Shown piece by piece: positions 8,317-55,577 of a stretch of 59,008 nt of DNA (the stretch's first letter is position 1; the number at the start of each line of letters is the position of its first letter). Source of the stretch: an uncultured beta proteobacterium (GTDB taxonomy: Bacteria > Pseudomonadota > Gammaproteobacteria > Burkholderiales > Burkholderiaceae_C); NCBI GenBank assembly GCA_903920695.1, contig CAIXNB010000185.1, positions 1 through 59,008 of the forward strand, given 5' to 3'. A program made the translations under genes and the position numbers. The notes beneath the pieces are model-generated. The model made no database searches, was not told the origin of the DNA, and saw only the letters and a list, made by a program, of their open reading frames with translations.

Positions 8317-9432
8317 CTAGATAGCGGGGTGCTGTTGGACCTGCTCATAGCGAGCATAGCCCTTGCCGACTCCGTATTCGATGATGCCCCAACCGACTTC
8401 GTCGCCATCCCGGACTTCGATGATCTGATCCGCCAGCGTGCGAACCTTTTTCCGAACCTGGTCTTCCGTCAAGTCCCAAACGTCTGACTCGCTGTAGCTC
8501 TTGCCCTTCGCATCACCATGAAACCAGCCGTTGAGGCCACCGTACAGACCACCTTTGAGGAAGTAGCGGGCAGGCATGGTGCGGATGGAAATCGATCGTT
8601 CATTGCCATCGGCAAATTTCAACTGGAACACGGCCGACTTCATCGATTGCCCTAGTGGATCGTCATGCCAGATGGCTTCATGTTTGACATCGACCAACTG
8701 GTTGCGACTCGATACCCGATTGCCGATCAAGAATACTTCCTCGCCCGAAAGGTAGATCTTGTCGTCGGGCGTGCGTTCCTTGAAGAAGATGTGCAGGCCA
8801 CGGTCCTTGAACTGGGCTGTCGCCCAGCAGTAAAAGAACGGCGGGTAGTAGGTCAAGGGCGGACTCGTCTCGTCGCTGCGCATCTCGGCGCGAACACCCC
8901 ATGAGTGGTCCCGCTGCCCCATCCAATTTGCTGAGTCCACCTCGATGCGGCGGCCATCAAACTCCAGCCAGCCGGTGTAGCGACCCAGTTGCTGGGCGCG
9001 TGCCATGTTTTCCGTGACGCGACCATCGCGCCGGCGCAGGTGGGATTTTTCCTCGTGCGGATTCATGCTCGCGTGAAATTCAAGCTCGAAGCGAATTCCT
9101 GATTCGTTGGAACCAAGGCTGAGCCGGTGCCGGCGCAAGCCTTCAAGCACTACAATTTCCAGAGCACCAACGCGTGTGGATAACGGATCCGGTCTGAGCT
9201 GCCGCGAGACCCGGAAATTCCACTGCCGGCCGGGCACGGCAATACCGGCAAAGGCATCCATCACATTGCGGTTGGGGTGGTAGCCCAGGCCGATATCGAA
9301 GATGATATCGGCTGCGGGCGAAGGGTGGCCGGTGTACCACAGGCGCTCCATCCAGGCAGGATCGCTGTTGTCAATTTGGTCGAAAGTGGTGGGTAGCTGG
9401 TGCCCGATAAGGTCATCTTGTGCGGTCAACAT
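8317..9432 (-). CDS. Conserved protein, lipocalin-like (CrtC/AttH-like) fold suspected
   Basis: The 371-residue protein has no signal peptide or membrane helix. It is rich in aromatic and charged beta-strand text, with a conserved-looking motif MGQRDHSWGVRAEM near residue 171 and YYPPFFYCWATAQF after it. That motif recalls the two-domain lipocalin-like family around carotenoid 1,2-hydratase (CrtC), often annotated as a domain of unknown function in lipid and terpenoid catabolic clusters; the assignment is from memory and tentative. It is transcribed away from two crotonase genes across a 130-base gap with an operator-like palindrome. It may hydrate or bind a hydrophobic substrate. Confidence 0.5.
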   Translation of the reverse strand: MLTAQDDLIGHQLPTTFDQIDNSDPAWMERLWYTGHPSPAADIIFDIGLGYHPNRNVMDAFAGIAVPGRQWNFRVSRQLRPDPLSTRVGALEIVVLEGLRRHRLSLGSNESGIRFELEFHASMNPHEEKSHLRRRDGRVTENMARAQQLGRYTGWLEFDGRRIEVDSANWMGQRDHSWGVRAEMRSDETSPPLTYYPPFFYCWATAQFKDRGLHIFFKERTPDDKIYLSGEEVFLIGNRVSSRNQLVDVKHEAIWHDDPLGQSMKSAVFQLKFADGNERSISIRTMPARYFLKGGLYGGLNGWFHGDAKGKSYSESDVWDLTEDQVRKKVRTLADQIIEVRDGDEVGWGIIEYGVGKGYARYEQVQQHPAI

Positions 9433-9481
9433 GGTTCAGTTCCTTCAAGTCGTCCGACCGTTTGCGGAAGTTCGTTCGGTA

Positions 9482-9505
9482 GTGTACATTACACTGCGTA
9501 TGTAA
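9482..9505. promoter_or_regulatory. Operator candidate between 8317-9432 and the crotonase pair
   Basis: GTGTA-CAT-TACAC at 9482-9494 is a 13-bp palindrome with perfect 5-bp arms. It overlaps a second palindrome with TTACA / TGTAA ends (9489-9505). The same GTGTA-N3-TACAC element recurs exactly at 25569 and in variants at other promoters of the cluster. It lies in the divergent promoter region. Confidence 0.55.
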
Positions 9506-9562
9506 TAAAGCGCACGAGCGGGGCATTCCCGGTCCAAAGAATCGTTAACCCGGAGACTTGAT

Positions 9563-10357
9563 ATGAACACTACCTATTCCTCGGTGAAAGTTGAAGTGCA
9601 GGACGGTTTGGCTATTGTGACGCTGACCCAGCCGGAACGTGGCAACCCGTTCGATGGCGACTTTACGCGGGATATGAAAGAGGTGTTTCTCGGTCTGTGG
9701 GATTGTCCCGGCCTGCGTGCGGTCCTGATCCGGGCCGACGGTGCCAACTTCAGTTTCGGCGGTGATCTCAAGAGTTTTTATCCGCAGCGCGCCAATCTGG
9801 CACCCCTGGTCCGGCGCTGGACCAGCGACCTGCACATGGGACTGCAACGCGCCTGGCAGTTGCCGGTTCCCATCGTGGTGGCTGTGCAAGGCTGGGCGAT
9901 GGGCGGCGGCGTCGCCCTGCTGGCAGGCTGTGATGTGGTCGTCGCGGGACAGTCCGCGCGCCTGGGCTCTGCCTTCGCGCAGCTCGGATTCAGCTGTGAT
10001 TCGGGCTCCAGCGCAACGCTGAGCGCGCGCATGGGCGTGGCACGCGCCAAGCGCTTCGTCATGCTGGCCGAAGTGCTGTCCAGCCTGGAAGCCATGCAAG
10101 CCGGGCTGGTGGACAAGATCGTTCCCGATGCCGAACTGGACGCCGAGGCATTGAGCGTCGCCAGAAAGCTCGCAGCCGGCCCAACCGTTGCCTACGGCGA
10201 GATCAAGCGCCTGTTCCTGCGCGCGAGCGCCATGCAAATGGAGGCGCTGCTGGAGGATGAAGCGCTGACCCTGGCGCGGGTCTCTTCCACCGATGACGCC
10301 CAAGAGGGCATTGCCGCCCTGATGGAAAAACGCAAACCGGTTTTTCTTGGTCGCTAA
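9563..10357 (+). CDS. Enoyl-CoA hydratase/isomerase family protein (PaaG-like)
   Basis: The 264-residue protein is a single crotonase domain. The oxyanion-hole segments are visible (FSFGGDL near residue 70, GWAMGGGVAL near 111). The hydratase glutamates are missing: GGGVAL has V where hydratases have E, and the second site reads AQLGFSCDSG. The aspartate in CDSG matches PaaG-type isomerases, so double-bond isomerisation is more likely than hydration. It starts at ATG 9563 behind CGGAG and is followed 14 bases later by a second crotonase, presumably in one transcript. Confidence 0.8.
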   Translation: MNTTYSSVKVEVQDGLAIVTLTQPERGNPFDGDFTRDMKEVFLGLWDCPGLRAVLIRADGANFSFGGDLKSFYPQRANLAPLVRRWTSDLHMGLQRAWQLPVPIVVAVQGWAMGGGVALLAGCDVVVAGQSARLGSAFAQLGFSCDSGSSATLSARMGVARAKRFVMLAEVLSSLEAMQAGLVDKIVPDAELDAEALSVARKLAAGPTVAYGEIKRLFLRASAMQMEALLEDEALTLARVSSTDDAQEGIAALMEKRKPVFLGR

Positions 10358-10371
10358 GGCGTGAGGTGATC

Positions 10372-11157
10372 ATGTCCACGGCATTCGAAGTGATCAAGGT
10401 CGATGTTTCCGAAGAAGGATGGGCGACTGTCCTCTTCAATCGTCCCGAGAAGATGAATACCTTGTCGCTGCAGTTGCGCCGTGAGTTGGACCAGGCGGTT
10501 GCGGCATTGGAGGCCGACACGGCTGTACGGGTACTAATTCTGAGCGGGGTCGGCTCGGCATTTACCGCCGGACTGGATCTCGACGAGTGGGATTCGACCG
10601 GTCTGAGCGCTGCTGGCGCCTATGAATACGACGTCGTGGCGACCCTGCAGCGCTTCTCCGGGCCCGTGATTGCAGCCATCAACGGGCTGGCCATGACAGG
10701 CGGCCTCGAGATCGCGCTGGCCTGCGACGTGGTGCTGGCGTCGGCTAATGCCAGATTCGCCGACACGCATGCACAGGTCGGCTTGCTGCCGGGATGGGGC
10801 GGCTCTGTCAGGCTGGCGCGCTGTGTCGGCCTGCACCGCGCCAAGGAGTTGGCGCTGACCGGACGCTTCTTCAATGCCGACGAAGCCCATGCCTGGGGTC
10901 TGGTCAGCCGCGTCGTGCCGCCGGATGCGCTGCTCGCGGAGGCTCAAGGCATGGCGCGCGCCATGCTCAAGGGCGTGCCCGATACCGTGCTTGCCTACAA
11001 GCGGCTGCTGGATCGGGGTTTCGAGGCGACACTGCCGCAAGCCATTGCTATGGAGCGTGCCATGTCCATTGCGAACAACTCGCCGGTCAGCCGCGATGCC
11101 ATTCAGGCACGCTTGCAGGCCGTGCGCGCCAGGCACAAAGACGAGTCCAAGTCCTAG
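10372..11157 (+). CDS. Enoyl-CoA hydratase family protein
   Basis: The 261-residue crotonase has AFTAGLDL at the first oxyanion-hole position and GLAMTGGLEIALACDVV, keeping the first catalytic glutamate. The second site reads ADTHAQVGLLPGWGGS, without the usual PE pair, as in several EchA-type hydratases. ATG at 10372 follows GAGGTG; an in-frame GTG lies six bases upstream. It forms a pair with the preceding gene. Its substrate cannot be told from sequence; a role in beta-oxidation of the ring-opened product or an alicyclic intermediate fits the context. Confidence 0.82.
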   Translation: MSTAFEVIKVDVSEEGWATVLFNRPEKMNTLSLQLRRELDQAVAALEADTAVRVLILSGVGSAFTAGLDLDEWDSTGLSAAGAYEYDVVATLQRFSGPVIAAINGLAMTGGLEIALACDVVLASANARFADTHAQVGLLPGWGGSVRLARCVGLHRAKELALTGRFFNADEAHAWGLVSRVVPPDALLAEAQGMARAMLKGVPDTVLAYKRLLDRGFEATLPQAIAMERAMSIANNSPVSRDAIQARLQAVRARHKDESKS

Positions 11158-11195
11158 CGCGGATCGCCAGCCGGCACGTGCTGGCCTCGCCGCAC

Positions 11196-12110: not shown

Positions 12111-12160
12111 ATCGATTCGTTTCCTGTGTTGCAACTAATTGGCGATCACCATGGCTCGGC

Positions 12161-13330
12161 TCAACCCGTTTGGGCGTTGGCCCGGTAGTCGGAAAACAGC
12201 TTACGACCGATGATGAGCTTCATGACCTCGATCGAGCCGCCGGCAATCTTGACAACACGGGCATCGGCGTAGGCCCGGGAAATCGGGTATTCCCACATGT
12301 AACCCCAGCCACCGAACAACTGCAGGCACTCGTCGACCACCTTGCAGTGCAGATTGCTCAACCACATCTTGGCCATCGCGGCATCGATCGCATCGAGTTC
12401 CCCCTTCATGAAGTTCTCGATGCACTTGTCGGTGAACTGGCGACCGATGACGGCTTCCGTCTTCAGCTCGGCCAGCTTGAACTGCGTGTTCTGAAAATCC
12501 CCGATCGTTTGGCCAAAAGCCTTTCTCTCGGCCGTGTAGGCCACCGTGTAGTCGATGACCGTCTCCGCCACGGTGGCGGAGCGAATCGCCTGCGCCAGCC
12601 GTTCCTGCGCCAGCTTGGTCATCATCAGCTCGAAGCCTTTGCCCTCTTCGCCGAGCATGGCAGACGCCGGTACGCGCACCTCGTCGAAGAACAGTTCCGA
12701 TGTGTCCTGGCCCTTCATGCCGAGCTTCTCCAGGTTTTTGCCGCGCCGGAAACCCGGCAGGCTGGTATCCACCAGGAACAGCGTCACACCTTTGGAACCG
12801 GCGCCCAAATTGGTCTTGGTCGCCAGCACGATGACGTCGCACAGTTGACCGTTGGAGATGAAGACTTTTTGACCCGAGATCACGAAGTCATCACCGTCAC
12901 GCACTGCCTTGGTCCGAATCGCCTTGAGGTCGCTGCCAGCGTGCGGCTCGGTCATGCCGAGCGAGCCGATGGCTTCACCGGTAACCATCCTGGGTAGCCA
13001 TTGCTGCTTCTGTGCCTCAGTACCAAACGATTTGATGTAAGTTGCCACCAGATCGCAATGGATCATGAAGCCGGGCCCGGTGTGGCCGGAGCGTGCCATT
13101 TCTTCAAAGACGACCACGTCGAACAGATAGTCGACACCAAGACCACCGTACTGTTCCGGAACCGTGCAACACAGCATGCCGGCCGCGCCAGCCTTGCGCC
13201 AGAGCTCGCGCGGTACGATGCGGTCGTGCTCCCACTGGGGATGGTGCGGTGTAATTTCCTTCTCGATGAAGCGCCGCACCGTGTCGCGAAAGGCTTCATG
13301 GTCTTCGTTGAAAAGTGTTCTCTTAAACAT
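12161..13330 (-). CDS. Acyl-CoA dehydrogenase (long-chain/isovaleryl type)
   Basis: The 389-residue flavoprotein has all three acyl-CoA dehydrogenase domains: the signature SLGMTEPHAGSDLKAIRTK near residue 124, RKAFGQTIGDFQ near 271, and a C-terminal LFGGWGYMWEYPISRAYAD. The C-terminal catalytic position reads IAGGSIEV instead of EGT, so the base is probably on the helix before RKAFG as in isovaleryl- and long-chain enzymes. It is adjacent to and co-directed with a second, different acyl-CoA dehydrogenase, which suggests successive steps or a heteromer such as PimC/PimD. Confidence 0.88.
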   Translation of the reverse strand: MFKRTLFNEDHEAFRDTVRRFIEKEITPHHPQWEHDRIVPRELWRKAGAAGMLCCTVPEQYGGLGVDYLFDVVVFEEMARSGHTGPGFMIHCDLVATYIKSFGTEAQKQQWLPRMVTGEAIGSLGMTEPHAGSDLKAIRTKAVRDGDDFVISGQKVFISNGQLCDVIVLATKTNLGAGSKGVTLFLVDTSLPGFRRGKNLEKLGMKGQDTSELFFDEVRVPASAMLGEEGKGFELMMTKLAQERLAQAIRSATVAETVIDYTVAYTAERKAFGQTIGDFQNTQFKLAELKTEAVIGRQFTDKCIENFMKGELDAIDAAMAKMWLSNLHCKVVDECLQLFGGWGYMWEYPISRAYADARVVKIAGGSIEVMKLIIGRKLFSDYRANAQTG

Positions 13331-13345: not shown

Positions 13346-14512
13346 CTAATAGGACTTCGGCAGGCCGAGCACCTTCTCGGCGATGAAGCACAGGATCAGC
13401 TGCTCGGTGATGGGCGCGATGCGGGTGATCGTCACCTCGCGCAGCAGGCGTTCGACGTGATACTCCTTGGCATAGCCGAAGCCGCCGAGGGTGAACACGG
13501 CCTGCTGTGCCGCCGCATAACCGGCGCGGGCGCCCAGGAATTTGGCGGTGTTGGCTTCGGCGCCGCAGGGCTGGTGCTGGTCGTACAACCAGGCGCCTTT
13601 CATGGTCATGGCCCATGCCGCTTCCAGGTCCATCCAGCGTTCCGCCAGCGGATGCTGAATGCCCTGGTTCATGCCGATTGGTCGGCCAAATACCACACGG
13701 TCCTTCGCATACTGGGTGGCGCGCCGATGCGCGTCCTGGCCGATGGCGATGGCCTCGGAGGCGATCAGCAGACGTTCCGGGTTCAGACTGTGCAGGATGT
13801 AGCCAAAGCCCTTGCCTTCCTCGCCAATGCGGTCGGCATCGGGAATGAACAAGCCGTCAATGAAGATCGCGTTGGAATCCACGGCCTTGCGACCCATTTT
13901 CGGGATGCGCCGGACTTCGATCTTCGAGCGATCGAGATCGGTGTAAAAAATCGTGATGCCGTCAGTCGGTTTCTTGCAGTCTTCCAGCTTGGTGGTGCGC
14001 GTGAGCAGCATGATCTTGTTCGCCACCATGGCCGTGGAGGTCCAAACCTTCTGGCCATACACCACGTAGCCACCCGGAACTTTTTCTGCAAAGGTCTTGA
14101 TGGCGGTCGTGTTCAGACCGGCGTCCGGTTCGGTGAAACCGAAGCAGCATTGGTCTTTGCCTTCGATCAGGCGCGGCAGCCAACGCTGGCGCTGGTCGGG
14201 GGTGCCGCAGACGACGATCGGGTGCGGTCCAAACAGGTTGATGTGCACCGATGAGGTAGCGGTCATGCCGCCGCCGTGACTGCCGACCTCATGCATCATG
14301 ATGCAGGCCTCGGTCACACCCAGACCCGCGCCGCCGTATTCGGTCGGCATCGTGATGCCCAGCCAGCCGGCGTCGGCCATGGCCTTGTGAAATTCACGCG
14401 GAAACTCGCCGTCCTCGTCGCGCGCCAGCCAGTATTCGTCGTCGAATGAGCTGACGACGGCGCTGACGCCGTCCCGTATCGCCCGATGGTCTTCGTTGGT
14501 TGAAAAATCCAT
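13346..14512 (-). CDS. Acyl-CoA dehydrogenase (atypical catalytic site)
   Basis: The 388-residue protein has the family signature CFGFTEPDAGLNTTAIKTFA near residue 121, VVFGRPIGMNQGIQHPLAER near 270 and GGFGYAKEYHVERLLREVTI near the end. The position of the usual catalytic glutamate reads IAPITE, that is proline in place of Glu, as in a known subgroup with APIxE tails. It lies 15 bases upstream of the neighbouring dehydrogenase in the same operon. The substrate is unknown; a pimeloyl-type or branched acyl-CoA fits the cluster. Confidence 0.86.
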   Translation of the reverse strand: MDFSTNEDHRAIRDGVSAVVSSFDDEYWLARDEDGEFPREFHKAMADAGWLGITMPTEYGGAGLGVTEACIMMHEVGSHGGGMTATSSVHINLFGPHPIVVCGTPDQRQRWLPRLIEGKDQCCFGFTEPDAGLNTTAIKTFAEKVPGGYVVYGQKVWTSTAMVANKIMLLTRTTKLEDCKKPTDGITIFYTDLDRSKIEVRRIPKMGRKAVDSNAIFIDGLFIPDADRIGEEGKGFGYILHSLNPERLLIASEAIAIGQDAHRRATQYAKDRVVFGRPIGMNQGIQHPLAERWMDLEAAWAMTMKGAWLYDQHQPCGAEANTAKFLGARAGYAAAQQAVFTLGGFGYAKEYHVERLLREVTITRIAPITEQLILCFIAEKVLGLPKSY

Positions 14513-15963: not shown

Positions 15964-16980
15964 ATGAATAAAGTCACCAACCGCCAAGTGCGCCTGCGCA
16001 GTCGGCCGACAGCGATCCCGCAAGCGGAACACTTCGAAATCGTGGCGCATCCGCTGCCCGGCATCGGGCCGGGGCAGGTGCTGGTGCGCAATGTGTTCCT
16101 GTCGGTCGAGCCGGCTATGCGCGGCTGGGTCAGCGCCGTGGGGAACTACAGTGAACCGGTCGCGCTGGGGGCGGTCATGCGCTCGTTTGCCGCCGGGCGC
16201 GTCGAGCAGTCGCGCGCGCCCGAGCTGCCAGTCGGCACCTGGGTCACCGGCATATTCGGGTGGCAGGACTATTGCCTTGTCTCGCCCGCCGATATTACGC
16301 GGCAGATCGCTGAGCGCGATCTGCCCCTGTCCACGGCCCTCGGAATTCTGGGAATCAATGGCGTCACCGCCCACTATGGTCTACTGGAAATCGGCCAGCC
16401 GCGTGCCGGAGAAACCGTGGTGGTCTCGACGGCGGCCGGGTCTGTTGGTTCCTGCGTGGGGCAGATCGCGGGGCTCAAAGGCTGCCACACCATTGGCATC
16501 ACCGGGGGCGAGACCAAGCGGCGCCTGTGCCGTGATCGTTTCGGCTTCGATGCGGCGGTGGACTACAAGTCGGTCGATTTCGAGACCCAACTGGCGCAGG
16601 CCTGCGTCGGAGGGGTCGATATCTACTACGACAACACGGCCGGGCCCATCAGTGATGCCGTCATGCGACATCTCAACCCGGGCGCACGGGTGATCATCTG
16701 CGGTACGGCGTCCATCGCCAGCTGGGAGCCGGCTCCGCAGGGTCCGCGCGTCGAACGCCAACTGCTGGTCAAGCGGGCGCGCATGCAGGGTTTCGTGATC
16801 TTTGACCATCCCGAGCATGACCAGCCTGCCCGTCGCGATCTGGCCGCATGGATTCGCCAGGGCAAGATGAACTACTTGGAAGACATTCTGGAAGGGATCG
16901 AACAGGCGCCGGACGCCATCGCCGGCCTGTACCGGGGCGAGAACCTTGGCAAGCGGTTGATCCGGATCGCGCCCTTGTGA
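15964..16980 (+). CDS. NADP-dependent enoyl/alkenal reductase (zinc-free MDR, CurA-like)
   Basis: The 338-residue medium-chain reductase lacks zinc ligands and has the family N-terminus ending FLSVEPAMRGWV near residue 55, the cofactor motif STAAGSVGSCVGQIAG near 157, and DIYYDNTAG near 219. It groups with 2-alkenal/prostaglandin/curcumin reductases, which reduce alpha,beta-double bonds with NADPH. It is not the zinc-type 6-hydroxycyclohexenoyl-CoA dehydrogenase (Had/BzdX). It is monocistronic, facing the next operon tail to tail. Confidence 0.83.
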   Translation: MNKVTNRQVRLRSRPTAIPQAEHFEIVAHPLPGIGPGQVLVRNVFLSVEPAMRGWVSAVGNYSEPVALGAVMRSFAAGRVEQSRAPELPVGTWVTGIFGWQDYCLVSPADITRQIAERDLPLSTALGILGINGVTAHYGLLEIGQPRAGETVVVSTAAGSVGSCVGQIAGLKGCHTIGITGGETKRRLCRDRFGFDAAVDYKSVDFETQLAQACVGGVDIYYDNTAGPISDAVMRHLNPGARVIICGTASIASWEPAPQGPRVERQLLVKRARMQGFVIFDHPEHDQPARRDLAAWIRQGKMNYLEDILEGIEQAPDAIAGLYRGENLGKRLIRIAPL

Positions 16981-17016: not shown

Positions 17017-17508
17017 TCAGGCGGTGCTGGCGCGCGGCGCGCTCTCACGGCTGATGGTTTGGTTCTCGGCATCATCGGAGATCAGGGCCCCGAGCTTGAA
17101 GACGGCGCTCGCGCGCAAGATCGGTAGGCCGTCGGCGCACACCAAACCCTGCACAAAAACGAGCGAATGGGTCTTGCGCAGAACATCCGCCTTGCCTTCG
17201 ATCCAGGCGCCCAGTGGAGCCGGCGCCAGGAAATCGGTCTGCAGGCTGATGGTGGGAAGGAAGTGGCGGGCCATATCGGTCTGGTACAACGCCGCCGTGG
17301 ACAGGAACATGTCGGCAAACAGTGCCAGCATGCCGCCATGGCACTGGTTTGCCGGGTTCACATGGTAGGGCTGGACGCGAAAGCCCAGCAGCATGTGTTC
17401 GCCGGTCCAGCGTGCAAACAAAGGCCCACTGCGCGTTGCATAGATCCCGCCGATGGTGACGGGATTGAAGCCCTCGGGCGCGTCGTTTTCTTTGGCGCTC
17501 TGGATCAT
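17017..17508 (-). CDS. PaaI-type hotdog thioesterase
   Basis: The 163-residue protein has the thioesterase hotdog core: NPANQCHGGMLALFADMFLS near residue 50 with the HGG-type turn, then TISLQTDFLAPAPLGAWIEG. It is the last gene of the leftward operon that starts at 25528. It probably hydrolyses a dead-end acyl-CoA and so recycles CoA. The last 20 residues are low-complexity and not conserved-looking. Confidence 0.82.
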   Translation of the reverse strand: MIQSAKENDAPEGFNPVTIGGIYATRSGPLFARWTGEHMLLGFRVQPYHVNPANQCHGGMLALFADMFLSTAALYQTDMARHFLPTISLQTDFLAPAPLGAWIEGKADVLRKTHSLVFVQGLVCADGLPILRASAVFKLGALISDDAENQTISRESAPRASTA

Positions 17509-18754: not shown

Positions 18755-18770
18755 GGGGCCAGCGGGCTCA

Positions 18771-25528: not shown

Positions 25529-25568
25529 TTTTAGGGACGCTATGTGAGTTGATTCGTACAATTCTTTT

Positions 25569-29411: not shown

Positions 29412-29412
29412 C

Positions 29413-30453: not shown

Positions 30454-30507
30454 ATCCGGTTTAGTTTTCGTTCTGCCTTTCACCCTCACCAACAAAAGGA
30501 GTCAACC

Positions 30508-47467: not shown

Positions 47468-48303
47468 GATATTTTCCTTTCATACGTTGTGTCTTGCGTC
47501 TGGCCGTCAGTCGCGATGAGTGCGGCGCCCAGTGCGCTGATGTACTCCGGCATTTCCGGCAGATTGATATGGTCGATTTCGAGGGACGATTTGAGGGACG
47601 CGACGAAGCCGGGGTTGTTTACCATGCCGCCGATCAGGACCACGTCGCCATCGATGCCGACGCGCCTGACCATGGCGCAGACCCGGCTGGCAACGGCGTC
47701 TAGCACCGATTTGGCAATGTCTTCCTTGGGCGTTGCCGAGTGGATCAGAGATACCACTTCGGATTCGGCAAAAACGGTGCATTGCGCATTCATCGGAATG
47801 CTCTTGTTGGAGAGCAGACTGGCCTCGCCAAACTCATTCAGCGACAACTGCAGGGCGCGGGCCATGGATTCCGCAAAAGCGCCGGCACCGGCCGCGCATT
47901 TTTCATTGCCGGCAAAATCCACCACCTTGCCTTCGGCCGTGGCTTTGACGCCGCGTCCTTCCTCGGCCCCGACATCAACCACGGTGCGGGCACTCGGGCA
48001 CATGAAGACGGCACCGCGGGCACCGGCCGAGACCTCAGTCACGTCGCTGTCGGCAAATCGAACCTGCTTGCGCCCGGCACCGGTTGAGACAATGCGACCG
48101 ACCTGATCGCGGCTGATTCCCGCAATCACTAGGCCATCAGCCAGCGCCTTGTCAGCGGCAACGTCCATATCGAGTTCGTCAGGAAACATCATGTGCATGC
48201 CCCTGACAGACCATTTCATTTGCGGTGTACCTGTCGCCTGGAGTTCTTCGAGGAACACCAGTTTGACAGTGCGCGAACCCATGTCTATTCCGGCTGTGAT
48301 CAT
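47464..48303 (-). CDS. bzdP: Benzoyl-CoA reductase ATPase subunit, BzdP-like
   Basis: The 279-residue ASKHA ATPase starts MITAGIDMGSRTVKLVFLEE and has GAGRKQVRFAD near residue 75, VDVGAEEGRGVKA near 110 and the Fe-S ligands in KCAAGAGAF and QCTVFAESE. It is the second, smaller ATPase subunit and pairs with BzdQ. It follows bzdO by 14 bases. The gene order N-O-P-Q is that of Azoarcus. Confidence 0.9.
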   Translation of the reverse strand: MITAGIDMGSRTVKLVFLEELQATGTPQMKWSVRGMHMMFPDELDMDVAADKALADGLVIAGISRDQVGRIVSTGAGRKQVRFADSDVTEVSAGARGAVFMCPSARTVVDVGAEEGRGVKATAEGKVVDFAGNEKCAAGAGAFAESMARALQLSLNEFGEASLLSNKSIPMNAQCTVFAESEVVSLIHSATPKEDIAKSVLDAVASRVCAMVRRVGIDGDVVLIGGMVNNPGFVASLKSSLEIDHINLPEMPEYISALGAALIATDGQTQDTTYERKIS

Positions 48304-48317: not shown

Positions 48318-49631
48318 TCAGGCGCGCATGAATTCACGCTTGAGGTTCAACGTTTCCATGAATGAATCGACCCGGTTTTGCGTGCGTCCCATGTCGAATT
48401 CGCGGTCGTCACCCATGTTGCCTTCATAGGTCATCACCGGGACGCCGGCCTTGATCAGGTCAAGACGGTTTTCCATGATTCCCATCGACAATCCTTCGCA
48501 ACCGCGGTTCAGGTGCAGCATCACGCCGTCGACGCCCCACTGCTTGATGACCTTCATCATCTGGTCACTCTTGACCATCGGTTCGTAGAACTGCTGAAAA
48601 TCGGGCTTGGCCAGATTCCATTCGCAGTAATGCTTCATAGCCTGCTCGCGGGTGTTCATCACGACACCGGTCTGCCAGGTCGGTGTGCGCGGCACCCATC
48701 TGCCGTCGGCGCTGGTCTCCCAGGTGCCCATCAAACCGAACGTGTACAGAGACCCGATCGAGACCACACCGAATTCCTCGAGGTAACGGAAGATTTTGAG
48801 AAATGCCCACGGCGGTTGGGTATCGGACATGACGCGACAACGTTCGTTAGGCACGGCAGCGATGCCGCGCGCCACGCGGTCCTTCACCTCATCGTAGACC
48901 TCTTCGTAAAAATCGGCGCACCACTTGGAAGACTTCGAAAGAGCGGCAAGGACATAGAGTGAGTAAATGGACTTTTCATCCAGCGGGGCGGGGCGGGCCT
49001 GATTGAGTTCGCAGATCTTGGCCCAGACCGAAGTCGCGCGCATCTCGTTCTTGACCGCTTCAATAAACAACTCGTCGTCGTACTTTCGCCCGGTTGTCTT
49101 CTCCAGCCACTCGATGCCTTCGAGTCCCTGGTTGGTGACGTACATCAGTCGTTCTTCAGTCAAGTCCTTGTGGGGTCCAACGGAAAGATCGACGAAGAAT
49201 GTCGGCGTCTTTTCGATTTGTGAGGCTACTTGGTACCACTTGGCATGTGAGCAACATACTTGAATCTGGAAATTGAAATCCGGTCGGGGAAACTCTCCTC
49301 CAAATGCGTATCGATTGAGCATCAACGAACCCCAGTACGAGCGCATGTAAGCGCACAGGTCACGCGCGTAGCCAGCCGATTCCGTGGCATCCTGGCACTG
49401 TTTGTTGAACTTCTTGTCGACCGAAATAGCGGCGCCGTAGGGCTCGCCCGTCAGCGAATAGACGTCACGGCCGAGACCAGCCGGAATGGCGTCGAGTGTG
49501 GCGGCCGAACCGGACCAGCGAAGACCGCCGTTGTCTTTGGCGCGGGCATAGTTTTGATAATACTGCTCACGAAGTTCCTTGGCCTTGCCCCAGCACTTGA
49601 GTGGCTCGGTGGGGTATCTTGCATTTGACAT
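48318..49631 (-). CDS. bzdO: Benzoyl-CoA reductase active-site subunit, BzdO-like
   Basis: The 437-residue protein belongs to the 2-hydroxyglutaryl-CoA dehydratase D-component family. Seen are [20 protein letters not shown] at the start, [20 protein letters not shown] near residue 128 and [20 protein letters not shown] near 374, all with conserved cysteines expected to bind a [4Fe-4S] cluster. With BzdN it forms the ring-reducing module that adds electrons to the aryl-CoA. The substrate could be benzoyl-CoA or a substituted benzoyl-CoA; sequence alone does not decide. Confidence 0.9.
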
Positions 49632-49657: not shown

Positions 49658-50797
49658 CTAGAACAAATCTTCTTCACTCATCGTCTCAAGAAACGCTTCG
49701 ATCCGGATGCGGAACGGTCCGATCGGATTGGTGATATCGAACTCGAGGAACAGGGTCGGTATCCCGTTCGCCTCCAGATGCGCTTTGAGGTTCGGATAGT
49801 CGCCTTCATGCGGATCGCAGAACTTCTGCTGCAGAAAAACAGCGGCCCGCGCGTTGTAGTCTTTGGCCAGTTTCAGCACATGGGCGTGGCGTGTGGGGAC
49901 CGGATAGTCCTTGGTGGGGCACGCGGGACGCTCGCAGTAGCGGTCGGCGATGGCATCGATGGCGTTGTCCTGGATCGTCGCCTCGTTCCAGAAATTGCGC
50001 GTGCCGGAGCACTGGTCATCGATGACGATCGTGGCACCGACGGACTCGACCATGGCCATGAAGGCCGCGTCGTCGTTCTCGGAGCCGATGGTCATGATGC
50101 GAACGCCTTCGGGTCGATCCTGCTTGCGCTGCGGCAGCGCTGCCAGCACGCGTTTCATTTCGGCGTTGTGCTCTTCACGGTCGATGAACTGAGCGGTCAG
50201 GGACGCATAGAGGGACTCCAGGCCGGAAACCCGTGGATTGGTCTCCTTGCGATATTCATAGATCTCGTGCAACAGGCGCCGGTTCTCGTTCATGATGGCG
50301 GTGGCGCGCTGGAGATCGGCATCGGTCAGCGGCGTGCCGGTCACGCCTTCGATGAAGGTCCGAAATTTCGCAACTTCGGCGCGGTGCAGGGTCTTGGCGA
50401 ATTTTGACTGCACTTCATTGGGCATGTGCAGGTAGTAGTCCCATTTCACGGTCGGAACATGCAGACGCCAGGAGTTGAAGGTCTGCCGGTATTGAATGCA
50501 GGATTGCGTCAGTGTCACTGCGTCGCAGTAGTTGTAGCGGCCCAGCAAACCCTGCGCCAGGGAGTCGCGGCAGAACGGACAGAACATGCCGAAGATATGC
50601 GGCTCTGTAACATTTTGCGGCTCGTGCGCGCCGAGCACACGTACTGGCAGCATGCCGGCGGCGATCAGCACTTCTTCCGGCACATAAGTGCACATGGTGG
50701 CGACCACCGACCCGCCAGTGCGCGCCTTCCAGTCGATTGCATACTCGTGGCGCTTTTCGTACCAAATCTTGAATTTATCAAACAATCCGCTGCTCAT
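49658..50797 (-). CDS. bzdN: Benzoyl-CoA reductase active-site subunit, BzdN-like
   Basis: The 379-residue protein is the second D-component-type subunit: [20 protein letters not shown] near residue 35, [17 protein letters not shown] near 73, [16 protein letters not shown] near 260 and a late [20 protein letters not shown]. Cysteines in these segments are the expected cluster ligands. The C-terminus is SEEDLF. It is the first gene of the operon and lies 155 bases downstream of tetR; that gap holds a perfect palindrome with TGCA in each arm. Confidence 0.9.
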
Positions 50798-50952: not shown

Positions 50953-51732
50953 CTAGTCTGGTGCAGTCGATCCTCCCGTCTTTGAGTGACCTGAAGCGCT
51001 CGCGGTCGAACGCTTCTTCTTTGGCTTCACTTCGGGCAGGGCAGCCTCCATGCGGACAGCGAGTTGCTCGAAACGCGCCAGAACGCGCTCGCTGGACTGG
51101 GGCTGCGCCGGTGAGGCGTCGGCCCTCATGCCATCGAATACCAAGGCCAACATCTGCCCGGTAGCGCTGTCGATGTCGAGCTCCTTGTGGTTAAACAGAA
51201 AGCCCGAGATCAGATGGTCAATGCCGCCGAAGATGAGGTCCCGCAGCAGACCCAGCGGCAGATCAGCTCGCAGGTCGCCTTTGAGAATGCCGTCGCGGCA
51301 GGTCTCGATGAAGACATGGGTGTACTCGCGGTTGAACTCGTAAATCTTGCTCTTGTAGTAGTCACCGCTGTGCCGAACTTCGTGATAGGAGAGCCGCGCC
51401 AGATCGGCGTTTTCCTTGAGTGCCCGCAAATGACGCGACACAATGTAATAGATCTTGTTTCGTGTCCCCTGGATGCCCGCCAGTTGTGAAACGAAGTCGG
51501 AAATCAAGGACGCGTACCAGGTCTCCAAAACCTGTATCAAGAGCGCCCGCTTGTTTTCGAAGTGCTGATAGAGCGTGCCCTCGGCTACGCCGGCCCTGGC
51601 CGCAATTTCGGCCGTGGATGCTGCCTCAAAGCCGCGCTCACAAAAGACTTCCCGCGCCGCGCTGGCGATGTCGCTCGCCCTGCGGTCACGCGGCAGTCGT
51701 ACGACAGTTCGACGGTTCGACGAATTTCCCAT
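50953..51732 (-). CDS. TetR/AcrR-family transcriptional regulator
   Basis: The 259-residue protein has a TetR DNA-binding domain: REVFCERGFEAASTAEIAAR leads into GVAEGTLYQHFENKRALL (residues 47-65). The rest is the ligand-binding helical bundle. A basic, low-complexity tail (PKKKRSTASASG) extends past residue 235. Start 51732 (MGNSSNRRT) is preferred over an ATG 39 bases upstream. It is divergent from the racemase gene and upstream of bzdN in the same direction. TetR regulators of aryl-CoA operons, such as MbdR in Azoarcus, often bind a CoA ester. Confidence 0.87.
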   Translation of the reverse strand: MGNSSNRRTVVRLPRDRRASDIASAAREVFCERGFEAASTAEIAARAGVAEGTLYQHFENKRALLIQVLETWYASLISDFVSQLAGIQGTRNKIYYIVSRHLRALKENADLARLSYHEVRHSGDYYKSKIYEFNREYTHVFIETCRDGILKGDLRADLPLGLLRDLIFGGIDHLISGFLFNHKELDIDSATGQMLALVFDGMRADASPAQPQSSERVLARFEQLAVRMEAALPEVKPKKKRSTASASGHSKTGGSTAPD

Positions 51733-52138
51733 TTTCAATTTCCAAAGGCCTTTTGCTCTGCAGGTTGACAAACAAATATCGTTTTAATGAGTTACGCTCA
51801 TTAATGTTAAGTTGCAGCGTTAGGCGTGTCAACAGTTTTTTCTAAAAATATCCGCAGAAAATTGATTTTTCATGTGCACTAACAAGACTGTGAATGGGCA
51901 AATATTGAAAGCCGTTCAAGTTTGGATTGCTGCGTGACTGCATTATTGAATGTAGCTCATTAAAGGCACGGCATTGAGCCGAACTCTGCATCAGAGCCGG
52001 AACGCGCGGCGTTGCTCAAGTGCACATAGTGCTGTAGCGTATGATATGCAGGTTGAACGACAGGAATTTGAATCAGCTCCCGCGTTATCGAGCGGGGCGA
52101 CGTTTGCTGCCAGACAGGCAACACCGAGGAGTCATTTC
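51733..52138. promoter_or_regulatory. Divergent tetR / racemase promoter region
   Basis: This 406-base stretch is A/T-rich against its surroundings and holds no convincing gene. TTAATGAG-TTACG-CTCATTAA (51784-51804) is a perfect palindrome 52 bases upstream of tetR; CTCATTAA recurs at 51956-51963. GCGTA-TGA-TATGC (52037-52049) is a variant of the shared GYGTA-N3-TA element, about 90 bases before the racemase start. Confidence 0.6.
51784..51804. promoter_or_regulatory. Probable TetR operator
   Basis: Perfect 8-bp arms TTAATGAG and CTCATTAA flank a 5-bp spacer directly upstream of the tetR start. A second CTCATTAA half-site lies 152 bases further on. Position and symmetry fit autoregulation by the TetR protein. 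Confidence 0.55.
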
Positions 52139-53290
52139 ATGAGTGGGCCATTGTCCGGGTTTCGGATTCTTGAACTCGGAGCCATCGGGCCGGTGCCGTT
52201 TGCCGGCGCCCTGCTTGCAGAAATGGGCGCGGATGTGGTTCGGATCGACCGCATTGCGGCGCCGCTTGCCGTGCCCGGCCTGCCCCCACGCTATGACTTC
52301 TACAACCGCAGCAAGCGCTCGCTGGCGCTGGACCTCAAGCGCGCCGAGGCGGTGGAGATCGTGCTTGATCTTGCCGGCAAGGCGGATGTGCTGATGGAGG
52401 GTTTCCGTCCCGGCGTTCTGGAGCGCTTGGGACTCGGTCCCGCGCAATGCCTGGCGGCCAATCCGAAACTGGTTCTGGCGCGCATGACCGGTTGGGGACA
52501 GACGGGACCACTGGCGCAGGAGGCCGGGCACGACATCAACTACCTTGTGCTGACAGGTGCGTTGCACGCCATTGGCGAAGTGGGCCATGTGCCGGTCCCG
52601 CCGCTCAATCTGGTGGCCGATCTGGGTGGCGGCGCGATGTACCTGGCCGTGGGCGTGCTGGCTGCGGTCATGCATGCGCGCGCCACGGGCAAAGGACAGG
52701 TGGTGGATGTGGCCATGATCGATGGCGTGACCCACCTGATGTCCGCTTTTCAGGCGTTCCGCCAGCAAGGCAGTTGGATTGACGACCGAGGCCGCAACAC
52801 TGTCGATGGCGGTGCGCCTTACTATGGCACCTATGAGACCAGCGACGGCAAGTATGTCGCCGTCGGCGCGATGGAGCCACACTTCTATGCCAATCTCTTG
52901 GGCGTGCTGGGTCTCGCTGCGACCAGCCTGCCGGCGCAGGAAGACCGCCAGGAATGGCCAACTCTGCGCGCACGTTTTGCCGCTGTCTTTCGGAGTCAAT
53001 CGCGCGCTGCGTGGGTGCAGGCTGCTACCGGTCGCGATGCCTGCCTGGCGCCGGTTCTGTCGATCGACGAGGCGCCGCAGCACCCGCACATGAAGGCACG
53101 CTCGGCTTATACCGATTTTGATGGCCTGCGCCATCCGAGCCCGGCCCCCCGTTTTTCCGAAACGCCATCGGTCCTGACGAGGCCCACTCCCGCAGCCGGA
53201 CAAAATACCGCCGAGGTCTTACAGGACCGGGAGGTTGCGCCAGAAAAAGTGGCGGCGGCAAGCGCGGCCGGGGCCTTTCAGAATTTCTAA
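52139..53290 (+). CDS. 2-methylacyl-CoA racemase-like CoA-transferase family III protein (AMACR-like)
   Basis: The 383-residue protein has the family III N-terminus GFRILELGAIGPVPFAGALL, ADVVRIDR near residue 33 and RMTGWGQTGPLAQEAGHDIN near 107. GHDINYL is the alpha-methylacyl-CoA racemase form with the catalytic His, which separates it from CaiB/FRC CoA-transferases. Racemases of this type convert (R)- and (S)-2-methylacyl-CoA so that acyl-CoA dehydrogenases can act. The start at 52139 follows GAGGAGTCATTTC. It suggests that the pathway meets methyl-branched acyl-CoA. The last 30 residues look low-complexity. Confidence 0.85.
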   Translation: MSGPLSGFRILELGAIGPVPFAGALLAEMGADVVRIDRIAAPLAVPGLPPRYDFYNRSKRSLALDLKRAEAVEIVLDLAGKADVLMEGFRPGVLERLGLGPAQCLAANPKLVLARMTGWGQTGPLAQEAGHDINYLVLTGALHAIGEVGHVPVPPLNLVADLGGGAMYLAVGVLAAVMHARATGKGQVVDVAMIDGVTHLMSAFQAFRQQGSWIDDRGRNTVDGGAPYYGTYETSDGKYVAVGAMEPHFYANLLGVLGLAATSLPAQEDRQEWPTLRARFAAVFRSQSRAAWVQAATGRDACLAPVLSIDEAPQHPHMKARSAYTDFDGLRHPSPAPRFSETPSVLTRPTPAAGQNTAEVLQDREVAPEKVAAASAAGAFQNF

Positions 53291-53330
53291 ACAACGCGGC
53301 GCAAGCCAGCCGCTTCAGCACACGGCGGAA

Positions 53331-54263
53331 TCAAAAAGCGACTTTTTCGGCGCCCTTGAGTTGCAGGATCTCGCGCGCTTCGTCGGGCGTTGCGATTTCG
53401 AGGCCAAGACCTTCCAGTATCCCTCTGACCCGCGTCACCTGTTCGGCATTCGAGTGCGCCAGTTTGCCACGCCCGATCCACAGACTGTCTTCCAGCCCGA
53501 CGCGAACATTGGCGCCCATCGACGCTGCCATGGCAGCGATCGGCATCTGGCTGCGTCCAGCGCCGAGTACCGACCAACGGTAATCGTTGCCGAAGAGACG
53601 GTCGGCCGTGCGCTTCATGTGCATAACATCATCAGGGTGTGTCCCAATCCCGCCGAGTATGCCGAATACAGTCTGCACGAAGAACGGAGCCTTCACCAGG
53701 CCGCGCTCGACAAAATGCGCCAGGTTGTAGAGGTGCGAGGTGTCGTAGCACTCAAACTCGTAACGCGTGTCATTGGCCGACAACTCGGTCAGCACCGTCT
53801 CGAGGTCGCCGTAGGTGTTGCGAAAAATCAGGTCCTTGCTGCCCTCGAGATAAGGGCGCTCCCAGTCGTGCTTGAATTCCTTGAAGCGCTGCAGCATGGG
53901 AAACAGGCCGAAGTTCATCGTGCCCATGTTCATTGACGCCACTTCAGGCTTGAGCACCTTGGCCGGCATCATGCGTTCCTGCACCGTCATGTAAGGCGAA
54001 CCACCCGTCGTCAGATTGACGATCGCATCGCTGTCGCGCTTGATGATCTTCAGAAATTTTTCGAATGCCTCGGGACGCTGGTCGGGTTTTCCGGTGACTG
54101 GATCGCGTGCATGCAGATGGATGATGGCGGCGCCCGCCTGCGCGGCAGCGATCGATGCTTCAGCGATCTCCTCGGGCGTAACCGGGAGATAGGGCGACAT
54201 CGAAGGCGTGTGGATGGCCCCGGTCACGGCACAACTGATGATGACTTTGTTCTGGACGTACAT
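53331..54263 (-). CDS. Beta-keto acid cleavage enzyme (BKACE, DUF849 family)
   Basis: The 310-residue protein starts MYVQNKVIISCAVTGAIHTP and carries the zinc-ligand motif HLHARDP near residue 50, then NLTTGGSP near 83, ASMNMGTMNFG near 110 and GANVRVGLEDSLWIGRGKLA near 250, all typical of BKACE/3-keto-5-aminohexanoate cleavage enzymes. Such enzymes split a beta-keto acid with acetyl-CoA into acetoacetate and a CoA ester. No lysine-fermentation genes are nearby, so another beta-keto acid is likely. Start 54263 is chosen over an ATG 48 bases upstream. Confidence 0.87.
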   Translation of the reverse strand: MYVQNKVIISCAVTGAIHTPSMSPYLPVTPEEIAEASIAAAQAGAAIIHLHARDPVTGKPDQRPEAFEKFLKIIKRDSDAIVNLTTGGSPYMTVQERMMPAKVLKPEVASMNMGTMNFGLFPMLQRFKEFKHDWERPYLEGSKDLIFRNTYGDLETVLTELSANDTRYEFECYDTSHLYNLAHFVERGLVKAPFFVQTVFGILGGIGTHPDDVMHMKRTADRLFGNDYRWSVLGAGRSQMPIAAMAASMGANVRVGLEDSLWIGRGKLAHSNAEQVTRVRGILEGLGLEIATPDEAREILQLKGAEKVAF

Positions 54264-54674
54264 GGCTGTTCCTCGGTAAGCGTTTTGACAGATCAGGAAA
54301 AATATCGGCAATCAGATAACGATGCGCAGCAGCAGGTTGACTCCGGAAACCACGGATCGGCTTTGTGGTGACTCTCTTTTTTGGCTATTGTACCGTAGCG
54401 TACCATATGTGTACATACCGTATTTTATCTATCTCTATCGATCAACTTGATACAATTAGTAATCTAGAAATTCATACTGAAGTTGACGATACGACTGCAG
54501 AATTTCAATGGCTGGATTCAGGTTTGCAAACAAATACCGGGGTACCATGAAATCATCTGTCGTCATGCTTGCATACGCCAAGGCGAGGCTCGAACGCGAC
54601 GATTCGTTGGCGCCGCCAGTTTACGATCTTGTGGCACAGGTTTGCGCAATGCTCCCGGTCAGAATCATTGCAAT
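54264..54674. promoter_or_regulatory. Divergent BKACE / TesB promoter region
   Basis: This 411-base stretch has no convincing gene and is A/T-rich at 54370-54500. It contains GCGTA-CCA-TATGT (54398-54410) and GTGTACAT (54409-54416), partial copies of the shared GTGTA-N3-TACAC element, and TACCGTA repeated at 54391 and 54416, 25 bases apart. Confidence 0.45.
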
Positions 54675-55577
54675 ATGAGCGCCGGCTCGGAAGGCCTCCA
54701 GCCCTGGGACGGTCACGACTTGTTTGCGCTCCTGACGCTGGAGGCAATCGATCCATCACATTTTCGGAGCCGTTATGCAAGCGAAAACGCGCGCGGCTCC
54801 GTCTTCGGCGGGCAACTGCTCGGTCATGCCGTCATGGCGGCGTCTATGACGGTTCCGCCAGACCGCGACGTGACCGCAATGCAGCTGTTCTTCTCGCAGA
54901 GTGCGATCCCTGATCGTCCGATCGACTTTGAGGTGACGGCGATTCAGGAAGGCAAGCGCTTTTCGTCGCGGCACGTGCGTGGTACACAGTCCGGTGGCCG
55001 CCTCGTTCTTGACGCTCAGGTGATGTTTGCATTGCCGCTGCTAGGGCCACAGCACGCGACGGCGGCACCTGCTATCGGTGTTGATCCGAACACCTTGATG
55101 AGGCTAGACGAGTTGCCGATTGAGATCAGTGATGCCGTTTGGCAAACACTCGGTTATCCGTTCGATTCATCAGCATTAGACCTGCGATTGGCAGACCCAG
55201 CCCAGGGTTTGGGTCTCGATGCTCACTCAACCAGGCTGCGCTTCTGGCTGCGCGCGCGCAACGAACTGCCGGACAATTCCAATGTGCAGGCTGCTGCATT
55301 TGCCTACTTGTCCGACTGGTGGCTGAACTTCAGCACGGTCGGGATCCATGTGCGCCAGATGCAGCATGATGGAACTCGTTTGCACGTGGCCAGTTTGAAC
55401 CATTCAATCTGGTTCCACCGTCCCCTGCTTGCCGATCGGTGGCTGCATTTCGACATACAAAGTCCATGTGCCGCCAGCGGTCGCGGCCTGTCGATTGCGA
55501 CCGTTCATGACGTCGAGGGCGTGCTGGTAGCCAGCGCAACTCAAGAGAACCTCATGACGCCGCTGGGCTCAACCTGA
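54675..55577 (+). CDS. tesB: Acyl-CoA thioesterase II (TesB-like)
   Basis: The 300-residue double-hotdog thioesterase starts at ATG 54675 (MSAGSEGLQPWDGHDLFALL). It has RGSVFGGQLLGHAVMAAS near residue 37 and the C-terminal SLNHSIWFHRPLLADRWLHF with the catalytic-region HSIWFHR motif, then EGVLVASATQENLM. It hydrolyses acyl-CoA to free acid and may rescue CoA when a pathway intermediate accumulates. The frame upstream of 54675 is open but not TesB-like. It is divergent from the BKACE gene. Confidence 0.87.
   Translation: MSAGSEGLQPWDGHDLFALLTLEAIDPSHFRSRYASENARGSVFGGQLLGHAVMAASMTVPPDRDVTAMQLFFSQSAIPDRPIDFEVTAIQEGKRFSSRHVRGTQSGGRLVLDAQVMFALPLLGPQHATAAPAIGVDPNTLMRLDELPIEISDAVWQTLGYPFDSSALDLRLADPAQGLGLDAHSTRLRFWLRARNELPDNSNVQAAAFAYLSDWWLNFSTVGIHVRQMQHDGTRLHVASLNHSIWFHRPLLADRWLHFDIQSPCAASGRGLSIATVHDVEGVLVASATQENLMTPLGST

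Follow-up and report, generated by a model that had tools for sequence, protein, structure and literature searches.

The 59,008-nucleotide stretch analysed here (the window), contig C185 in a genome of 4.88 Mb from an uncultured beta proteobacterium (231 contigs, 99.4% complete), carries a bzd-type benzoyl-CoA reductase operon (BCR2) together with genes related to badH, badI, aliA and aliB. We suggest, at about even confidence, that this island is a second, dedicated ring pathway in which BCR2 would feed a BadH/BadI-type cleavage (BadH-2 and BadI-2), acting on a ring-substituted benzoyl-CoA and/or its alicyclic counterpart. Sequence comparison supports the paralogy to two standard gene sets of the same genome, the distinct clades of the paralogues, a residue change in the active-site subunit and a conserved gene module. 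That bzd and bad-ali genes occur in one genome is known and not unusual, as the available passages of PMC9795900 describe for Aromatoleum CIB; this genome stands out by having a further, diverged pair at one site and a reductase with an altered pocket. From the original prediction, a possible link between a bzd-type reductase and a BadH/BadI branch is retained, in the narrower form of a second, specialised pathway.

The BCR2 operon lies on the minus strand in the right half of the window, in the order TetR, BzdN, BzdO, BzdP, BzdQ, BzdM-like ferredoxin and BzdV. Family labels denote similarity only, and paired scores are bits over the cut-off of the curated NCBIfam equivalog model; PF01869 alone is unspecific (matches in 10 of 14 control genomes), and the reductase calls were made with the NCBIfam models. 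The BzdN-like double-cubane subunit (49658..50797; TIGR03190, 713/454), the BzdO-like active-site subunit (48318..49631; TIGR03191, 754/449) and the BzdQ-like activase subunit (46568..47467; TIGR03192, 577/380) pass the curated cut-offs, and BCR2 is by score a bzd-type class I reductase. The BzdP-like ATP-dependent activase subunit (acyl-CoA dehydratase activase, 47464..48303) matches TIGR00241 (196/125) and PF01869. The BzdM-like ferredoxin of 94 residues (46271..46555) is an open frame with 4Fe-4S cysteine motifs (Pfam Fer4_6, 22.2 bits, below the gathering score of 25), followed by a BzdV-like NAD(P)H/ferredoxin oxidoreductase of 850 residues (42956..45508; Pfam Fer2_4, Fer4_20 and Pyr_redox_2). 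The TetR-type regulator directly upstream of BCR2 (50953..51771) has NCBIfam TetR matches, none above cut-off. The bzdN-O-P-Q-M operon with a bzdV-like gene, as originally predicted, is confirmed by the N, O and Q scores, the P activase, the ferredoxin frame and BzdV. Window BzdN aligns end to end with BzdN of PDB 8s02, and all six cluster ligands (Cys36, Cys73, Cys100, Cys263, Cys293 and Cys327; ligand list from the available passages of PMC11971306) are kept in an alignment read by eye.

We detected both standard sets elsewhere in the genome. A BcrAD search revealed another activase pair on contig C107, where bzdQ-P-O-N, a BzdR-type regulator, benzoate-CoA ligase (bclA) and an ABC transporter follow one another; its subunits score above those of the window (N 816, O 930 and Q 628 bits). 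At the start of contig C69 a dch-like gene (163 bits, below the cut-off of 292.5) precedes had (558/339) and oah (638/464), and none of the 14 control genomes passes the dch, had or oah cut-off. The bad-ali set is on contig C180, where BadI (488/468), AliB (666/575) and AliA (847/792) pass and BadH (428.2/431.2) is 3 bits short. The window, judged by similarity, holds diverged paralogues of both sets, and it is ruled out as the only ring pathway by C107, C69 and C180. The absence of bzdW, bzdX and bzdY noted in the original prediction holds for the window, where the best TIGR03200 match is BadI itself (92.6 bits), the best TIGR03189 match is a crotonase (73.9 bits) and TIGR03201 has none; it does not hold for the genome, which has the dch-like gene, had and oah on C69. 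Among 60 relatives searched with window BzdO, four (own genome included) have a bzd-type O above 700 bits and only the own genome carries two. In the NOPQ tree (62 rows, quick method) C107 groups with locus L074 (98% identical), near Polaromonas and Rhodoferax metagenome-assembled genome (MAG) loci, a placement that hints at a betaproteobacterium of the Comamonadaceae type. In the standard bzd cluster, a second BzdR/BoxR-type regulator (L005 14921-15853) comes after the ABC transporter.

Base 1 of both C107 (L005 1-141) and C69 (L022 1-90) lies inside a bzdV gene, with 81 and 85 exact bases, respectively, in common with the ends of window bzdV, and the assembly holds one full bzdV only. Both contigs align, in order, to the single L074 cluster at 87-90% nucleotide identity. 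The shared bzdV ends and this colinearity suggest that the standard bzd cluster is complete and that its bzdV interior (2.3 kb) collapsed in assembly with the window copy. The window segment 45905-46555 is 84.7% identical to C107 at the nucleotide level.

The change in the active-site subunit concerns the substrate pocket. In the BzdNO structure published in 2025, Trp46, Leu302, Leu383 and Tyr97 surround the benzoyl ring, and Glu65, His131 and three cysteine ligands are described in the available passages (PMC11971306). Window BzdO keeps the ligands Cys95, Cys128 and Cys380 and the catalytic Glu65 and His131, with roles as given in those passages. At residue 46 (8s02 numbering) it has Ala, and the reductase of locus L049, a Sulfuricaulis MAG (genome G1183), has Ser, while 80 of the 82 BzdO rows, C107 BzdO included, have Trp; the benzoyl-contact Trp46, which is defining by conservation only, is lost in window BzdO. 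The position of Glu303, a residue that we added to those named in the PMC11971306 passages, is Met in the window, Gln in L049 and Glu in the other 80 rows. Glu65, Cys95, Tyr97, Gln124, Cys128, His131, Gln274, Tyr298, Leu302 and Cys380-Glu381-Gly382 are invariant in all 82 rows; Ser44 and Ala45 are kept in the window and both are variable overall (66/82 rows).

The loss of Trp46 marks a clade. Among the 120 homologues listed of 1644, residue 46 is Trp in 110, Ala in 7, Ser in 1 (P0207, by contig and name the L049 protein), Leu in 1 (P0202) and a gap in 1. In a BzdO tree of 37 rows, chosen from the 82 locus rows and the 120 listed homologues and built with the position-46 stretch removed, nine of the ten non-Trp rows form one clade (support 100/98), with P0202 outside it. 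The clade is probably a subfamily with a wider pocket, an argument that draws on the identity of the changed residue and on the clade marking, not on a concentration of change. Also in this clade is an O subunit from Aromatoleum aromaticum (85%), the closest among the 120 listed homologues for which an organism is named. L049 is the partner of the window reductase in the NOPQ tree; both are long branches, within a group that includes Herminiimonas CN and L026.

Loci L042-L048 hold BzdO homologues (70-73%) with no BzdN, BzdP or BzdQ on the fetched stretch, most of them among ligase, short-chain dehydrogenase/reductase (SDR) and acyl-CoA dehydrogenase genes; they are possible stand-alone or subunit-swapping O proteins. 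L095 and L097 have BzdN and BzdO pairs with no P or Q in the following ~10 kb, plus a BadH-like SDR (47%), and L095 additionally has an AliA-like ligase (45%).

The second half of the proposal is the BadH-2/BadI-2 module. BadH-2, an SDR related to 2-hydroxycyclohexanecarboxyl-CoA dehydrogenase (22036..22806; TIGR03206, 336/431), and BadI-2, a MenB/BadI-type ring-cleaving hydrolase (21227..22024; TIGR03210, 413.5/467.6), are on the minus strand; an AliA-like ligase (34460..36109; TIGR03208, 719/792) and an AliB-like acyl-CoA dehydrogenase (start 37827 or 37863, end 39011; TIGR03207, 550/575) are on the plus strand. The original naming of these four genes is upheld by their best NCBIfam matches, yet all four fall below the equivalog cut-offs, and they are 57% (BadH), 60% (BadI), 57% (AliB) and 53% (AliA) identical to the C180 proteins.

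Window-type BadI is rare. We searched draws, which may overlap, of 399 genomes of the family (own included), 399 of the order and 369 of the class, the last two at a stricter E-value. BadI-2 was found in 4 of the 398 other family genomes (G163, G174, G438 and G160, 83-90%; next best 67%) and in one further genome of the order (G772, 72%); none was found in the class draw at that stricter threshold. A tree for BadI had been proposed with the original prediction: in 33 rows, BadI-2 forms a clade (support 100/99) separate from C180 BadI and 25 other BadI-family rows, these 26 being labelled by identity and only C180 being checked against the curated cut-off. Midpoint rooting nests BadI-2 within the BadI family, and the rows include no experimentally characterised BadI; the tree thus answers the refutation check proposed with the original prediction only in part. 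Among the best 120 matches of each search, the named proteins include, at 84% identity or more to window BadI, entries from Burkholderia sp. OK233, Paraburkholderia and Rubrivivax, and, at 85% or more to window BadH, entries from Polaromonas, Hydrogenophaga, Variovorax, Rhodoferax and Aromatoleum toluolicum.

The genes around BadI-2 recur with it. BadH and the crotonase-domain protein are found in G163, G174, G438 and G772, the acyl-CoA dehydrogenase at 12161 and the 2,4-dienoyl-CoA-reductase-like SDR at 11196 (DECR11196) in G174, G438 and G772, the acyl-CoA dehydrogenase at 13346 in G174 and G772, and the thiolase, the KAS III-DUF35 protein and half of a beta-keto acid cleavage enzyme (BKACE) in G163. 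A block of Liv, FadD11, AliB, APH and Rv3169 genes recurs in G438 at 71-88%. In G160, BadI-2 alone was seen, with no other module gene on the short contig. Liv, hemerythrin-like and NnrS-like names were given by eye, and L180 and L187 were annotated only by similarity to a protein panel of our own.

Three genomes may connect a reductase-like enzyme or the reductase flank with this module. The Ser46 reductase of G1183 is of the same subfamily as BCR2, and its contig has no dch, had or oah after bzdV; the next genes are homologues of the hemerythrin-like and NnrS-like pair behind oah on C69, and then come Liv genes, a FadD11-like ligase (40%) and a relative of the 13346 dehydrogenase (59%). Another G1183 contig carries relatives of the 12161 dehydrogenase (46-47%) and a BadI-family gene. 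G438 has six PF06050 (benzoyl-CoA-reductase-type) genes; on its contig C7 the module is ~6 kb away from HGD-type pairs that belong to another family and have N-type subunits resembling BcrC (164 and 159 bits, far below cut-off), and on its contig C18 an HGD-type pair and an activase stand among relatives of AliA (56%), CaiB (49%), two hydratases (65 and 66%) and the SDR at 39029 (86%, over 114 residues). In G163, an 88% relative of the BKACE of the window's right flank (cut by the contig end, 52% covered) adjoins the KAS III-DUF35, thiolase, BadH and BadI genes. We favour the view that these recurrences point to one pathway, in which BCR2 would be coupled to BadH-2/BadI-2.

G438 (7.1 Mb, same family as the window) has three divergent HGD-type pairs (L151 9034-14259 and L168 7160-10590), with only one PF01869 activase found; two of the pairs stand within a series of ligase and SDR genes close to the BadI-2 module. 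A gene that looks by eye like a molybdopterin oxidoreductase (L168 16468-18660) stands in the HGD-pair region just after the two hydratase relatives.

In the proposed pathway, the Liv-type transporter would import an acid, which the FadD11- or AliA-like ligase would activate. For an aromatic ring, BCR2 (NOPQ with ferredoxin M and oxidoreductase V), its pocket freed of the ring-facing tryptophan, would produce a dienoyl-CoA, which a dienoyl- or enoyl-CoA reductase could convert to a monoene; alicyclic relatives would join at the monoene level via the AliB-like dehydrogenase. Hydration could be performed by the enzyme at 36898 or 10366, after which BadH-2 and BadI-2 would open the ring to a substituted pimeloyl-CoA, and the remaining dehydrogenases, crotonases, the thiolase with KAS III-DUF35, BKACE and the CoA transferases would shorten it. 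DECR11196, put forward in the original prediction for the extra reduction, is the best candidate and its closest solved relatives are 2,4-dienoyl-CoA reductases (PDB 7ucw and 1w6u, 187 and 178 bits); its conservation in G174 and G772, which have no PF06050 gene, means that its presence is no evidence for the reduction of a reductase product.

The loss of Trp46 makes a benzoyl-CoA with a ring substituent, bulkier than benzoyl-CoA itself, the most likely substrate. No A. aromaticum locus is among the best 80 reductase loci, which were taken from one genome per species; the A. aromaticum O subunit of the BCR2 type would thus come from a non-representative strain, most likely the p-cymene degrader pCyN1. 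The available passages of PMC7825797 list EbN1 and pCyN1 under A. aromaticum, those of PMC4561516 describe activation of p-cymene at the methyl group by pCyN1, and those of PMC9795900 (citing Weiten 2021) describe, for A. aromaticum pCyN1 and A. petrolei ToN1, a badKHI cluster that lacks aliAB and badR and is proposed to act on monoterpenes. The probable pCyN1 origin, the p-cymene chemistry and the extra badKHI set lead us to a 4-alkyl benzoyl-CoA, e.g., 4-isopropylbenzoyl-CoA, as the leading guess. Methyl-group activation of p-cymene leads on to 4-isopropylbenzoyl-CoA. No paper on this compound was found in the literature searched; Becker et al. 2022 and Kueppers et al. 2019 lie outside that literature and may describe the pathway. 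Kueppers et al. 2019 reportedly deal with 4-isopropylbenzoyl-CoA in pCyN1, and Becker et al. 2022 is said to be a study on pCyN1. The Aromatoleum and hydrocarbon papers found for pCyN1 hold no description of its reductase cluster in their available passages. A bicyclic aryl-CoA, for instance of the thn-like tetrahydronaphthoyl-CoA type, is a possible alternative.

Several observations weigh against the coupling of BCR2 with the module and against the special substrate. PF06050 genes are absent from G163, G174, G160 and G772, and thus from all but one of the five further genomes with BadI-2 (completeness is only 76% for G163, which holds one PF01869 match above cut-off), so the BadI-2 module does not seem to require a benzoyl-CoA reductase, contrary to the original assumption that it serves one. 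The BadI-family gene of G1183 is nearer to C180 BadI (54%) than to BadI-2 (48%). The O-type subunits of G438 C7 match best as 2-hydroxyisocaproyl-CoA dehydratase (145 and 111 bits, far below cut-off), and these pairs may be dehydratases and not aryl-CoA reductases. The NOPQ tree places the window near reductases, e.g., L026, that have dch, had and oah alongside. Window BzdO deviates at 22 of 236 conserved columns, and of 16 checked residues that the available PMC11971306 passages name only Trp46 is changed, so change does not cluster in the pocket; long branches are seen for L049, P0188 and others. The collapsed bzdV repeat makes the link from BCR2 through bzdV to the island uncertain. The absence of dch, had and oah was considered as a marker of a special substrate and rejected as not diagnostic: L072 lacks them in the fetched flank and keeps Trp46.

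The 80 reductase loci were fetched with flanks of at most 10 kb; L169 and most short loci from the genome searches do not enter the analysis. had lies within the flank at 41 of the 80, and many of the others are cut by contig ends. No close window-type BadI, BadH or AliA was found in these flanks (best 35, 47 and 45%); BadI is ~26 kb from BzdO in the window, and flanks of this length could not show it.

These observations lead to the question of whether the reductase and the module are simply two independent neighbours, with the BCR2 product handled in trans by dch, had and oah of C69 (BCR2 being a backup or a substituted-benzoate reductase) and BadH-2/BadI-2 serving an alicyclic acid of naphthenic or monoterpene type. 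The BadI-2 genomes without a PF06050 gene (G160 with BadI-2 alone), the dch-like, had and oah genes in the genome, and the own TetR of BCR2 in an operon convergent to the Liv-AliB operon all fit this explanation, which we consider rather unlikely, given the BKACE relative beside the G163 module, the presence of a BCR2-clade reductase and module-like genes on one contig in G1183, and the HGD-type enzymes beside module relatives in G438. An assembly artefact is less probable still: a jump between contigs within the collapsed bzdV could have joined the island to BCR2, which would really precede dch-had-oah, the island then belonging to the standard NOPQ genes. C107 and C69 do end inside bzdV with 81 and 85 exact common bases, one full bzdV was assembled, and its 2.3-kb interior would be beyond the resolution of short reads, if such were used. 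Against this, C107 and C69 match the single L074 cluster in order at 87-90% and hence belong together, by elimination the two window ends pair with each other, and BKACE, CaiB and TetR tie BCR2 to the right flank without crossing bzdV; the membership of that flank in the module in turn depends on one half-length BKACE match.

The explanation given with the original prediction, that the hybrid island is the cell's own benzoyl-CoA route with the BadH/BadI branch replacing bzdW, bzdX and bzdY, we regard as the least probable, indeed very improbable. Its parts are present and the window has no dch, had or oah; however, the genome has standard bzdNOPQ with bzdR and bclA, had and oah, and a standard bad-ali set elsewhere, BadH, BadI, AliA and AliB of the window are diverged paralogues, and Trp46 is kept in C107 BzdO and lost in window BzdO. 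Of the condition named at the time as able to overturn the benzoate reading (dch, had and oah elsewhere, with matching induction), the genomic part holds: dch-like, had and oah genes are on C69. In Aromatoleum CIB, bad-ali serves cyclohexane carboxylate, and deletion of badHI leaves growth on benzoate intact, according to the available passages of PMC9795900.

Returning to a second, dedicated pathway, we put forward one more specific and more tentative version of it: a new bzd-type class I aryl-CoA reductase subfamily that lost Trp46 may reduce a bulky substituted benzoyl-CoA, e.g., 4-isopropylbenzoyl-CoA, with the product passing after one further reduction to BadH-2 and BadI-2. An Azoarcus-type reductase would then be followed by a monoene route like that of R. 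palustris, and the two would form a unit found repeatedly, in several lineages, in which unrelated HGD-type enzymes could perhaps take the place of the reductase (G438 would be an example). If true, facultative anaerobes would extend ring reduction by duplicating the reductase, opening its pocket at one residue and joining it to an alicyclic ring-cleavage module in place of dch, had and oah. It would also tie the substrate range of class I aryl-CoA reductases, as a hypothesis, to one residue, and would offer a sequence marker by which anaerobes that degrade alkylated aromatics could be recognised in metagenomes.

The other genes of the island are as follows. Next to BadH-2 on the minus strand are a thiolase of the PRK06157 type (22860..24065; NF004810, 638 bits, above cut-off; 83% in G163) and its likely partner, a KAS III/HMG-CoA-synthase-like protein fused to a DUF35 (ChsH2-type) OB domain (24077..25561; PF08541, PF01796; 70% in G163), with an SDR divergent from it (25772..26686, plus strand; Pfam adh_short). 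On the other side of BadI-2, also on the minus strand, are the crotonase-domain protein with a long C-terminal extension (19615..21171; PF00378; 48-56% in G163, G174, G438 and G772), a CoA transferase family protein (17516..18802; 64% in G163, 49% in G174) and a hotdog-fold (PaaI-like) thioesterase (17017..17508; weak matches below cut-off; 46% in G174). A CurA-like reductase follows on the plus strand (15964..16980; NF058644, 360/440; 68% in G174). The acyl-CoA dehydrogenases (13346..14512, 85-86% in G174 and G772; 12161..13330, 79-86% in G174, G438 and G772) and DECR11196 (11196..12134; NF005811, 213/318; 59-85% in G174, G438 and G772) are on the minus strand, and a crotonase family protein (9563..10357) and an enoyl-CoA hydratase-like protein (10366..11157; NF004840, 261/253; 66% relative on G438 C18) on the plus strand. 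An Rv3169-family protein (8317..9432, minus strand; NF053593, 318/150; 75% in G438) forms the left edge.

The middle of the window is a plus-strand run of Liv, FadD11-like, AliA-like, transglutaminase-like, hydratase, AliB-like and SDR genes. It comprises the five genes of a branched-chain-type ABC transporter, LivG-H-M-K-F (27709..32519; open frames with likeness to the C107 transporter; 78-83% in G438), a FadD11-like acyl-CoA ligase (32532..34358; best match below cut-off; 83% in G438), an enoyl-CoA hydratase-like protein with a possible BadK-like role (36898..37737; 65% relative on G438 C18), the AliB-like dehydrogenase (88% in G438) and a PECR/DECR-like SDR (39029..39898; 72% on G438 C7, 71% in G772). 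To the right of BCR2 are a CaiB-type CoA transferase (51974..53290, plus strand), the relative of which on G438 C18 is beside the HGD-type pair, the BKACE (53331..54311, minus strand; NF053538, 562/430) and a TesB-type acyl-CoA thioesterase (54483..55577, plus strand; TIGR00189, 158 bits, below cut-off). Directly upstream of the island, at 772-7754, is what looks by eye like a ribosomal-protein/RNA-polymerase operon, with a GC content of 56% compared to 59-62% in the island. An exact 115-base repeat is common to the right ends of the window (58871-58985) and of C107, with a partial copy at window 56404-56471.

The closest known system for the reductase is the bzd cluster of Aromatoleum (Azoarcus) sp. 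CIB (BzdNOPQ, PDB 8s02), alike, as far as its published passages go, in the N-O-P-Q-M...V order, cluster ligands and catalytic residues; the window differs in having no adjacent dch, had and oah, in the BzdO changes Trp46 to Ala and Glu303 to Met, and in the standard copy elsewhere in the genome. The bad-ali genes of R. palustris and Aromatoleum CIB (available passages of PMC9795900) have AliA, AliB, BadH and BadI homologues in the window, which, unlike them, are 53-60% identical to the genome's own standard set, are below cut-offs, have DECR, thiolase/KAS III-DUF35 and BKACE partners, and are split, with AliB and BadH-BadI on opposite strands and 15 kb apart.

The mbd region of Azoarcus sp. 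CIB for 3-methylbenzoyl-CoA (available passages of PMC4424350) is alike in holding a TetR regulator, ABC transporter, ligase and reductase in one region. An mbd-type 3-methylbenzoyl-CoA reductase was rejected as a candidate: MbdO (61.5 bits) and MbdN (94.5 bits) are only remote relatives, compared to 711 bits for BzdO and 673 bits for BzdN, so the window reductase is of another type. The thn operon for 5,6,7,8-tetrahydro-2-naphthoyl-CoA (N47 and NaphS2; Table 1 in the available part of PMC12016498) is alike in outline, by its published gene list alone: a class I reductase, ferredoxin, oxidoreductase, hydratases, thiolases, acyl-CoA dehydrogenases and a CoA transferase. Compared to thn, no old-yellow-enzyme naphthoyl-CoA reductase is recognised within the window, and the window reductase is bzd-type. 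The badKHI clusters of pCyN1 and ToN1, likened by their description only, resemble the window in being a second BadH/BadI set in denitrifiers.

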